Of a stretch of 34,494 bases of DNA, positions 19,364 to 29,658 are shown in pieces. The notes beneath the pieces were generated by a model. It searched no databases. It had not been told where the DNA came from and saw only the letters and a program-made list of their open reading frames with translations. Every line of letters begins with the position of its first letter. The first letter of the stretch is position 1. The position numbers and the translations under genes are program-made. This DNA comes from Methanobrevibacter sp. (GTDB lineage Archaea > Methanobacteriota > Methanobacteria > Methanobacteriales > Methanobacteriaceae): NCBI GenBank assembly GCA_022775905.1, contig JALFJX010000015.1:1-34494 (forward strand), written 5' to 3'.

Positions 19364-19438
19364 AGGCTAGTGGCACAGCTTGGTTAGCGCGCTCGGCTGA
19401 TAACCGGGAGGTCATGGGTTCGAATCCCATCTAGCCTA
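19364..19438 (+). tRNA. tRNA-Ile (anticodon GAU)
   Basis: A full cloverleaf is visible. Acceptor AGGCTAG pairs with CTAGCCT, discriminator A73. The anticodon stem CTCGG/CCGGG carries loop CTGATAA, anticodon GAT. The T arm is ATGGG-TTCGAAT-CCCAT. The D arm GCAC/GCGC has one A12-C23 mismatch. There is no intron and CCA is not encoded. Several T-runs just downstream can end transcription. Confidence 0.97.
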
Positions 19439-26357: not shown

Positions 26358-26457
26358 TAAAATAAAATTTTAAATTTAATATAATTTAAATTACCAAATA
26401 ATTTAAGTTATTATAAAAAATAACCTTATTTAAAAACTAATTTTAAAAATTTTTGAA

Positions 26458-26474
26458 CCGAAACCTTTATATAG
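26458..26474 (+). promoter_or_regulatory. BRE/TATA promoter of cdc48
   Basis: CCGAAA plus CCTTTATATAG is a strong archaeal promoter. A start near 26490 would give a leader of about 90 nt. Confidence 0.7.
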
Positions 26475-26495: not shown

Positions 26496-26533
26496 TGTCA
26501 ATAAAGTTACAAAAAGTAACAAAAAGATTGACA
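26496..26533 (+). promoter_or_regulatory. Nested palindrome in the cdc48 leader (candidate operator or RNA hairpin)
   Basis: TGTCAAT (26496-26502) and ATTGACA (26527-26533) enclose GTTAC-AAAAA-GTAAC (26506-26520). Both are perfect inverted repeats with a common centre region, beginning about 25-30 bp after the TATA box. They could be a repressor site at the transcription start or a stem in the mRNA. Confidence 0.6.
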
Positions 26534-26578: not shown

Positions 26579-28780
26579 ATGGCAGAAAATGAAATTACTC
26601 TAAAAGTTGCAGAAGCAATTTCACAAAAAGATGTTGGTCAAGGAGTAGCAAGACTTGATCCAAATGTTATGGATGACTTAAACATCCATGAAAGAGATTT
26701 AATCGAAATTGTTGGCGAAAAAAGAACTGCAGCAATCGCACTTCCTTCACAAACCGACATTGGACTTGGAGTCATAAGAATTGATGGATTAGTACGTAAA
26801 AACTCAGGTGCAACTATAGGTGGAGAAGTTCAAGTTAAAAAAATCAAAGCAGTAGAAGCTAAAAAAGTTGTTTTAGCTCCAATTGAAAATAACATCCGTG
26901 TACAAGGTGATGTACGTGGTTTATTTGCTGGAAAAGTAATGGTACAAGGAGACATAATTGGATCTCAAATCAGAGCACCAAAACCAAGTATGAGCATGGG
27001 TTTTGGTAGCTTGTTTGACGAACTAATGGATTTCACACCAGCAATGAGAGAAATTAAATTTGCTGTTGTATCAACCAATCCAAAAGATATCGTAATTGTT
27101 GGTCCAAATACTGAAGTCCAACTCCATGAAAGTCCAGTTGATGTAAGTAAAATTGAAGGTGTAGGAAACCTTGTTGATGTAAGTTACGAAGACATTGGTG
27201 GTCTTAAAGAAGAAGTCAAAAAAGTAAGAGAAATGATTGAAATTCCTCTTAAAAGACCAGAACTCTTTGAAAAGTTAGGTATTGCACCTCCAAAAGGAGT
27301 ATTAATGCATGGTCCTCCAGGTACTGGTAAAACATTACTAGCTAAAGCAGTAGCTAGTGAAAGTGATGCTCATTTCATTGCAATAAATGGGCCTGAAATC
27401 ATGAGTAAATATGTTGGTGGATCTGAAGAGAACTTAAGAGAATACTTCGAAGAAGCAGAAGAAAATTCTCCTTCAATCATATTTATCGATGAACTTGATG
27501 CAATTGCACCAAAAAGAGAAGAAACTAATGGAGAAGTTGAAAGAAGAACCGTTGCTCAACTTCTTACATTAATGGATGGTCTTAAATCCCGTGGCCAAGT
27601 AGTAGTAATTGGTGCAACCAACAGACCAGATTCTCTTGACCCTGCACTCAGAAGGCCGGGAAGATTTGATCGTGAAATAGAAATCGGAGTACCGGATTCT
27701 GAAGAAAGAAAAGAAGTACTTGAAATACACACAAGAAACATGCCTCTCTCAGAGGATGTTGACCTCGATAAAATCGCAAATACAACCCATGGATTTGTAG
27801 GAGCAGACCTCGAATCATTATGTAAAGAAGCAGCAATGAGGGTTGTTAGAAGAATATTGCCTGAAATCCAAAATGATGAAGAAATTCCAAAAGAAGTGAT
27901 GGAAAAAATCGTTGTTACCGGCGATGACTTTAAAAATGCGCAAAAAGAAATCCAACCTTCTGCTTTAAGAGAAGTTCTTGTACAAATCCCAGATATCAAA
28001 TGGGATGATATAGGTGGTCTTGAAGACGTAAAACAAGAACTTAAAGAAGCTGTAGAATGGCCATTAAAACACCCAGAAACTTTCCAACGCTTAGGAATCA
28101 GACCTCCGAAAGGAACCTTGCTTTACGGAATTCCAGGAACTGGTAAAACATTACTTGCAAAAGCAGTAGCAAGTGAAAGTGAAGCAAACTTCATTTCAGT
28201 GAAAGGTCCAGAACTCCTATCCAAATGGGTTGGAGAATCTGAAAAAGGAGTTAGGGAAGTATTCAGAAAAGCTAAACAGGCAGCACCAACTGTAATCTTC
28301 TTTGATGAGATTGATGCAATAGCCAGCACACGTAGTGGAAATGATACTGACAGTGGAGTAACTAAAAGAGTTGTAAACCAATTATTAACTGAAATGGATG
28401 GTTTAGAAGAACTTGAAGATGTTGCAATTATTGCAGCAACCAACAGACCAGACATTTTGGATGCTGGACTTATGAGGCCTGGAAGATTTGATAGACATAT
28501 TCAAGTCGGAGAACCAGATGAAGAAACCAGGCTTGCAATCTTTAAAGTACACACTAAAGATATGCCACTTGCGAAAGACGTTGATCTTAAAAAACTCGCT
28601 AAAAATACTGAAGGATATGTTGGAGCAGACATTGAATCAGTATGCAGAGAAGCAGCAATGCTTACATTAAGAAAAGACCTCGATGCCAAAGAAATCCCAT
28701 ATAAATACTTTAAAGAAGCAATTGATAAAGTAAAACCTGGACATAACTCTAATGAAGAACAGTTAGTCCAATATATGTAG
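26579..28780 (+). CDS. cdc48: AAA+ ATPase Cdc48/VAT (p97-like unfoldase)
   Basis: This 733-residue hexameric unfoldase feeds proteins to the proteasome or remodels complexes. It has the N-terminal double-psi barrel and CDC48 domain 2 (1-185), then D1 with Walker A GPPGTGKT (245-252) and Walker B D304-E305, and D2 with Walker A GIPGTGKT (517-524) and Walker B D576-E577. The D2 P-loop has Ile where Pro is usual. The protein ends V-Q-Y-M, a degenerate version of the HbYX proteasome-docking tail. The ATG at 26579 is chosen because AGGAGATGA lies upstream; the ATG at 26570 lies within that site. A nested palindrome in the leader may regulate it. Confidence 0.97.
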
Positions 28781-28803
28781 GAAGAAAATATTAATTTCTT
28801 CCT
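28779..28803 (+). terminator. Hairpin directly after cdc48
   Basis: AGGAAGAAA and TTTCTTCCT form a perfect 9-bp stem around ATATTAA, starting within the TAG stop codon and followed by T's. Confidence 0.6.
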
Positions 28804-28811
28804 TTCATATT

Positions 28812-28943
28812 AACCTCCATATAAACACTGACCATTAGGGAGGGATGCAAAAATCTCTCCCACAACCTCCAAATAATATTTATACCATTTTCTACCGTTT
28901 TTCCAGGGAGGATATGGAATCCTCCCACAACCTCTATACTGAC
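28812..28943. repeat. Degenerate tandem repeat: AACCTCC boxes alternating with GGGAGG hairpins
   Basis: Three AACCTC[C/T] boxes start at 28812, 28864 and 28929. Between them lie two hairpins: GGGAGGGAT/ATCTCTCCC (28838-28861, one G-U pair) and GGGAGGAT/ATCCTCCC (28906-28926). Each hairpin is followed by ACAACCTC. The first and last boxes are followed by a related ACTGAC (28827 and 28938). The unit is about 52-65 bp and present a little over twice, between the 3' ends of two convergent genes. I do not recognise it as a known element. Confidence 0.7.
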
Positions 28944-28989
28944 ATATTATTTTTTAAAGTCAAAACAAAGTTTAAAATAAGTTTAATTT

Positions 28990-29658
28990 TTATTTCCGGT
29001 TAGGCAATGTAAAATCAGGAGCAACAATTCTTTGATGAAACATCTGAGGTTTATATTCAATGAATGGGAATCTAATTCCACTTACACCATACTTAGGATT
29101 ATAACCGAATAAATTAATATAATCCTTCAAATCATCACGTTCATTTTTCATAGCCAATGCCACACGATATAATGCTTTTGTATCATCAATAGCTCTGTGA
29201 AAATTAACTTTTTCTATATCATAATATTCTACAGCATCAATAAGTCTGTGAGGGTATTTTTTTCTATCTTTTAAAACTGACACAGTATCTAACCAATTTA
29301 AATTAGAAACAATTTCATTAGCATCATCAGGAAAATGACGTGCCAATAATGAATAAACAAATAACAGATCGAATTGACAATTATGAGCAACCATCAATGT
29401 GCCTTCAGTAAGTCTTTCTCTTAAATCCATAGCCACTTTTTCTTCATTAATCCCCTCATTTCTTATCATATCATTTGTAATCCCAGTTAATTTGGATATT
29501 TTTGGTGAAATTGGCCTCCCAATATCAATAAATTCATCATAACTATCAGTTTTAGTACCATCTTCAACAGTTAACATTGCAAGCTCTATAATACTATCAG
29601 ATCTGAAATCAAGACCCGTTGTTTCAGTATCAAAAAATATAACTTTTATAGTAAACAC
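28990..29658 (-). CDS. DEDDh 3'-5' exonuclease (DnaQ/RNase T-like)
   Basis: The 222-residue nuclease has all the catalytic residues of the DEDDh group: D10 and E12 in FFDTETTGL, D97 in AHNCQFDLLF, and H154 with D159 in HRAIDDT. It may proofread or trim DNA or RNA ends; the substrate is not evident. About 50 extra residues follow the exonuclease core (YNPKYGVSGIRFPFIEYKP). No ATG start fits: the frame opens with GTG at 29658 right after AGGTT, so the true start is uncertain. It is divergent from thiC and convergent with cdc48. Confidence 0.88.
   Translation of the reverse strand: MFTIKVIFFDTETTGLDFRSDSIIELAMLTVEDGTKTDSYDEFIDIGRPISPKISKLTGITNDMIRNEGINEEKVAMDLRERLTEGTLMVAHNCQFDLLFVYSLLARHFPDDANEIVSNLNWLDTVSVLKDRKKYPHRLIDAVEYYDIEKVNFHRAIDDTKALYRVALAMKNERDDLKDYINLFGYNPKYGVSGIRFPFIEYKPQMFHQRIVAPDFTLPNRK

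Follow-up and report, generated by a model that had tools for sequence, protein, structure and literature searches.

We find that the 3′ UTR of cdc48 in Methanobrevibacter contains a real and previously undescribed element, which is both modular and covarying. In the window, meaning the whole stretch of 34,494 nucleotides of Methanobrevibacter sp. DNA that was analyzed, the element comprises three hairpins (28779–28926) and three AACCTC boxes (starting at 28812, 28864, and 28929), as read directly in the interval. We are confident in the part of our explanation that makes it a structured 3′ UTR RNA. The explanation as a whole, a modular structured cdc48 3′ UTR whose boxes pair with Shine-Dalgarno (SD) sequences in trans, is the one we favor, at somewhat below an even chance. 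To our knowledge, conserved structured 3′ UTRs have hardly been described in archaea.

Layout of the element and its gene

The preliminary description of this interval had counted three boxes alternating with two hairpins. Those boxes and hairpins (II and III in Table 1) are borne out, but the total is wrong, since hairpin I had been missed. The minimum-energy fold of the + strand consists of exactly the three hairpins and leaves every box unpaired (pairing probability < ~0.1). In the consensus, hairpin I starts in or beside the stop codon and UUUUCCUCC follows; module II is a linker CUAACCAUAUUUA, hairpin II, and (AC)AACCUCC; and module III is a linker UUUCUCUACCG, hairpin III, and ACAACCUC. 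The UUUCU..ACC linker is conserved in both modules, and linker II is, boxes aside, the most conserved primary sequence of the element. Box I is found in most species, usually 3′ of a U-tract, and the hairpin III unit has a near-identical counterpart in genomes G044 and G056. On inspection by eye, pairing between the AUGG of loop III and the CCAU of linker II was discarded, since species that lack the loop still have linker II.

Table 1. Features of the cdc48 locus in the window
Feature	Position	Strand	Description
cdc48 promoter	26457..26474	+	strong BRE/TATA-like ACCGAAACCTTTATATAG, identified by eye
cdc48	26579..28780	+	ORF; CDC48/VAT-type AAA ATPase, family named from sequence
Hairpin I	28779..28803	+	AGGAAGAAA / TTTCTTCCT, 9 bp; overlaps stop codon 28778-28780
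Box I	28812..28818	+	AACCTCC, predicted single-stranded
Linker II	28828..28837	+	CTGACCATTA (consensus CTAACCATATTTA)
Hairpin II	28838..28861	+	GGGAGGGAT / ATCTCTCCC, 9 bp including one G-U, 6-nt loop
Box II	28864..28870	+	AACCTCC, predicted single-stranded
Linker III	28888..28897	+	TTTTCTACCG (consensus TTTCTCTACCG)
Hairpin III	28906..28926	+	GGGAGGAT / ATCCTCCC, 8 bp, AUGGA loop
Box III	28929..28935	+	AACCTCT, predicted single-stranded
T6 tract	28950..28955	+	3′ of last module, read in sequence
Exonuclease-like gene	28990..29658	-	convergent to cdc48

We set the start of cdc48 at 26579 rather than 26570 from the conservation of MAENEIT and the SD upstream of it, and cdc48 has a single match in nearly all genomes of the genus. 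The neighboring gene is convergent and exonuclease-like in some species and co-directional (MSEHIIEALGLSK...) in others, and the element keeps its place 3′ of cdc48 though this downstream gene varies in orientation and identity. The element belongs to cdc48 and is better described as the cdc48 3′ UTR than as a free-standing array.

The leader of cdc48 carries a palindrome, GTTACAAAAAGTAAC, at 26506–26520 near the likely transcription start, followed by AAAAAGATTTTGACA and then by the SD GGAGATGAT, an arrangement kept across species. The palindrome may be bound by a heat-shock-type regulator acting as a repressor.

Conservation, covariation, and copy number

A BLAST search of Methanobrevibacter genomes, which the preliminary description had proposed, recovered the element 3′ of cdc48 across the genus. 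With BLAST and retrieval in 66 other species, we found it at this position in the window's Methanobrevibacter group, which by its named loci takes in M. thaueri and M. millerae assemblies. A covariance model of module II built from 14 sequences (R1) has matches with E ≤ 0.01 at cdc48 in 40 of the 67 genomes of the genus, a count that leaves out G037, where the match is antisense coding, and no other locus was judged real. Across 139 genomes of the family, matches at E ≤ 0.1 are confined to 1 of 17 genera. The box itself is more widespread than chance would allow: CCTCC lies within 230 nt of the cdc48 stop in 54 of 61 flanks, whereas first-order Markov sequences give an expectation of 13.3 flanks and, over 200 simulations, no more than 22.

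The number of modules differs between species: some have only hairpin I, others I+II or I+II+III, and some have four modules. A quick tree was built from the 3′ coding end of cdc48, with only 390 columns and many weak forks. On it, the basal species are mostly without boxes, a group of 11 species is limited to module I, the other group of 41 species has I+II or more, and module III appears at several places. The array probably grew by tandem duplication. In one species, hairpins II and III are identical over the entire unit (GGGAAAGATACTGACATCTTTCCCACAACCTC), and this identity suggests a recent duplication or a conversion between modules.

In a sister group that includes an M. olleyae assembly, cdc48 is followed by a simpler form, a hairpin or short stem, then a U-tract, then CCUCC, in about 8 of the 10 species read. 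A search with R1 found no module II or III at the cdc48 loci of this group. Since the box is present there and R1 has no match, we conclude that the CCUCC box predates modules II and III. Some 200 nt past cdc48, the same sister group has another long hairpin (AATGAATTAAAGAATAGAT..), which likewise ends in a CCTC box and shows a compensatory G-C/A-T change.

The stems vary with compensation, and hairpin I too is conserved across the genus with compensatory changes. A plain MAFFT alignment (A2) has pairing in 100% of its cells, changes on both sides in 3 of 9 pairs, and four one-sided changes, all from A-U to G-U. In a second alignment (A3), fitted to the model and so leaning towards structure, 97.9% of cells are paired and 8 of 9 pairs covary, with 47 double-changed cells; shuffles give 9.2 and slid controls no more than 11. 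The single non-Watson-Crick pairs in the module stems are 6 G-T and 0 A-C, a small number, in a count that gave wobbles no preference; the two C-A cases lie in the adjoining coding region, outside the module stems. Because the stem wobbles are G-T and never A-C, a + strand RNA is favored.

These observations bear on the proposal of an independent RNA, either a small RNA or a minus-strand transcript with GGAGG before its hairpins, made from its own promoter. The minus strand also folds (-44.6 versus -39.3 kcal/mol), and the TATA-like strings noted earlier are present in the window, but they are conserved between box I and hairpin II in just 6 of 34 species. With G-T as the only wobble in the module stems, and with a downstream side that varies between species, we regard an independent RNA as extremely unlikely. 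Small ORFs on the minus strand, seen by eye in some species, were inconsistent and were dropped.

The earlier suggestion of a small RNA family or repeat holds insofar as the element is a structured RNA of repeated hairpin-ACCTCC modules; it fails as regards a dispersed repeat or mobile element, since there is a single locus per genome. The proposed search for further copies in the own genome, by BLAST, pattern, and covariance model, gave nothing beyond chance-level hits, the off-locus R1 match being weak (E 0.475) and antisense in a coding region. In 1.11 Mb of sampled sequence of the same genome together with the window, mechanical ORF calling gave 1132 3′ flanks. CCTCC occurs in 13 of them, and cdc48 is the only one of the 13 with an adjoining GC-rich hairpin. 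No Rfam 15 family exceeds its gathering cut-off for the element, the only match in the window being a tRNA at 19364–19438. A DNA element without an RNA role, whether a mobile repeat or a set of protein-binding palindromes, would fit the tandem inverted repeats, but the locus is single in each genome, the phage and plasmid collections hold no match, and the covariation is compatible with G-U pairs. We give this disfavored reading next to no credence.

In several genomes, off-locus R1 hits fall antisense in one P-loop (GGVGKTSVSS) gene, with other hits scattered. Module II resembles the antisense strand of this gene (GGVGKTSVSSATALWLAEQ) in having CTAACCAT, GATACAGA, and CTCC in the same order, with model E-values of 0.001–0.5 per genome. 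We take the likeness as chance because the module of the own genome lacks the middle match and the E-values are at chance level.

Possible roles of the boxes

The preliminary description had equated ACCTCC with the anti-SD core, and the 16S rRNA 3′ end of the same genome indeed reads ...GGATCACCTCC. It had also read the GGGAGG hairpin arms as the complement of the boxes. This complementarity is a local coincidence: the arms vary with compensation and are GGGAAAGAU in most species, while CCUCC stays. Because the boxes are near-invariant and the stems change by compensation, it is the boxes, not the GGGAGG arms, that carry sequence information, and for this reason pairing in trans with GGAGG-type SD sequences is favored. 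The box motif is complementary to GGAGG, is unpaired in the predicted fold, and has as its core the anti-SD of its own 16S rRNA.

In our preferred explanation, each module in the 3′ UTR of the cdc48 mRNA would consist of a covarying hairpin and, after it, a single-stranded CCUCC box. The hairpins would keep the boxes accessible and shield the 3′ end. Copying the anti-SD core of 16S rRNA, the boxes would form base pairs with SD sequences of the GGAGG type. At high levels of cdc48 transcription, translation of SD-led mRNAs may then be damped by the cdc48 3′ UTR or by a stable RNA product of its processing. Here, we infer transcript extent, pairing, targets, and effect. In Staphylococcus aureus, a UCCCC motif in the icaR 3′ UTR pairs with an SD and serves as a precedent (PMC3868564), and control of translation by a 3′ UTR has an archaeal precedent in haloarchaea (PMC2636863). 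We hold only tentatively that the boxes mimic the anti-SD core and pair in trans, at a chance well short of even. Against such pairing, a 5-nt match to the general SD is unspecific, the box is lost in most basal species of the genus, and no conserved target for the boxes was found, the off-locus model hits being at chance level and antisense in the P-loop gene. A wider version, in which the cdc48 3′ UTR mimics in tandem the 16S 3′ end, a hairpin with the anti-SD core exposed after it, and acts in trans, is unlikely; it would sequester SD-led mRNAs or titrate a protein that reads the 16S tail and so couple expression of a protein-quality-control gene to translation initiation in gut methanogens.

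Self-pairing of the icaR kind, in which the boxes pair with the SD of cdc48 itself and shut off translation, has in its favor that SD and 3′ UTR lie on the same mRNA and that CUCC pairs with GGAG. However, the own SD is GGAGAUG in 23 of 23 leaders, which would select UCUCC and not CCUCC, and no more than 4 nt of the box match GGAGATGAT. Predicted duplexes between the 5′ and 3′ UTRs likewise show no advantage over shuffled controls (mean z -0.58). Since the SD would select UCUCC and the duplexes are at control level, we consider such autoregulation very unlikely.

An array that serves 3′-end stability or termination is possible, if on the doubtful side. Its hairpins would block 3′-to-5′ decay and stack as back-up ends of the cdc48 mRNA, with CCUCC serving as a component of the end signal and not for pairing. 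Hairpin I begins at the stop codon and has a U-tract after it in many species; a U4+ tract lies within 80 nt after the last CCTC box in 51 of 56 flanks, which in AT-rich DNA is weak evidence alone; and dnaJ has a similar hairpin across its stop codon. U-tracts and aCPSF1 serve archaeal termination (PMC8716108), and the T6 tract of Table 1 is a likely transcript 3′ end site, judged by sequence. However, the U-tracts are found close to hairpin I and beyond the last module, neither hairpin II nor hairpin III is directly followed by one, and hairpins are not strictly required for archaeal termination (PMC8716108). The near-invariant CCUCC core and the conserved linkers would also be left unexplained, CCTCC being rare in the other 3′ flanks counted above.

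The dnaJ hairpin (G000:C9:236183-237400) spans the stop as TTAGT..ACTAA, is followed by TTTACTTTCC, and occurs in many species of the genus, with CCTCC not conserved. A box common to chaperone genes, considered from one sampled dnaJ with TTTCCTCC after its stop, was rejected, as only 5 of 30 genus dnaJ flanks have CCTCC.

An RNA-binding protein, for example a binder of the 16S 3′ end, might instead read hairpin and ACCUCC together, with tandem modules raising avidity. Archaeal Dim2/Pno1 binds the 16S 3′ end, and the module anatomy resembles that end, with the helix 45 hairpin followed by GGATCACCTCC. Linkers and loops are conserved while stems covary freely, and the module number varies from 1 to 4. 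Against this, the loops ACAGAC and AUGGA differ from the helix 45 loop, and U rather than AA usually precedes box I. We rate a protein-binding array as unlikely, yet as a serious rival, like the stability or termination array.

Comparison with known systems

In dominant gut methanogens, the element accompanies the gene for an ATPase that is central to proteostasis. Should the boxes prove to pair with SDs, or to bind a reader of the 16S tail, the element would offer a concrete, testable case of 3′ UTR translation control in an SD-using archaeon, and natural variants with 0, 1, 2, 3, and 4 modules allow comparison.

One close likeness is to the S. aureus icaR mRNA, whose 3′ UTR has an SD-complementary C-rich motif, UCCCCUG, in a single gene (PMC3868564). 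The cdc48 element, in contrast, is archaeal, has tandem modules with covarying hairpins, is conserved over a genus, and has boxes that mismatch the SD of their own gene. Haloarchaeal 3′ UTRs, which together with 5′ UTRs set translational control, share with it a post-transcriptional role for an archaeal 3′ UTR, whereas a conserved box-hairpin module is a feature of the cdc48 element and is not examined in the abstract of that report (PMC2636863). Regulatory RNAs of methanogens that act by base pairing, such as sRNA162 of Methanosarcina mazei, are similar in kind, with the pairing here being inferred; by its abstract, that source concerns a Methanosarcina sRNA (PMC3510493), whereas the repeats here are tied to cdc48. 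The archaeal U-tract terminators read by aCPSF1 resemble the element in the U-tracts that it has close to hairpin I and past its last module, but the known terminators need neither a hairpin nor a CCUCC box (PMC8716108). Finally, the archaeal 16S rRNA 3′ end, helix 45 plus anti-SD, has the same order of a hairpin and then a single-stranded ACCUCC-type tail, but the hairpins of the cdc48 element have no sequence homology to it and their loops differ.
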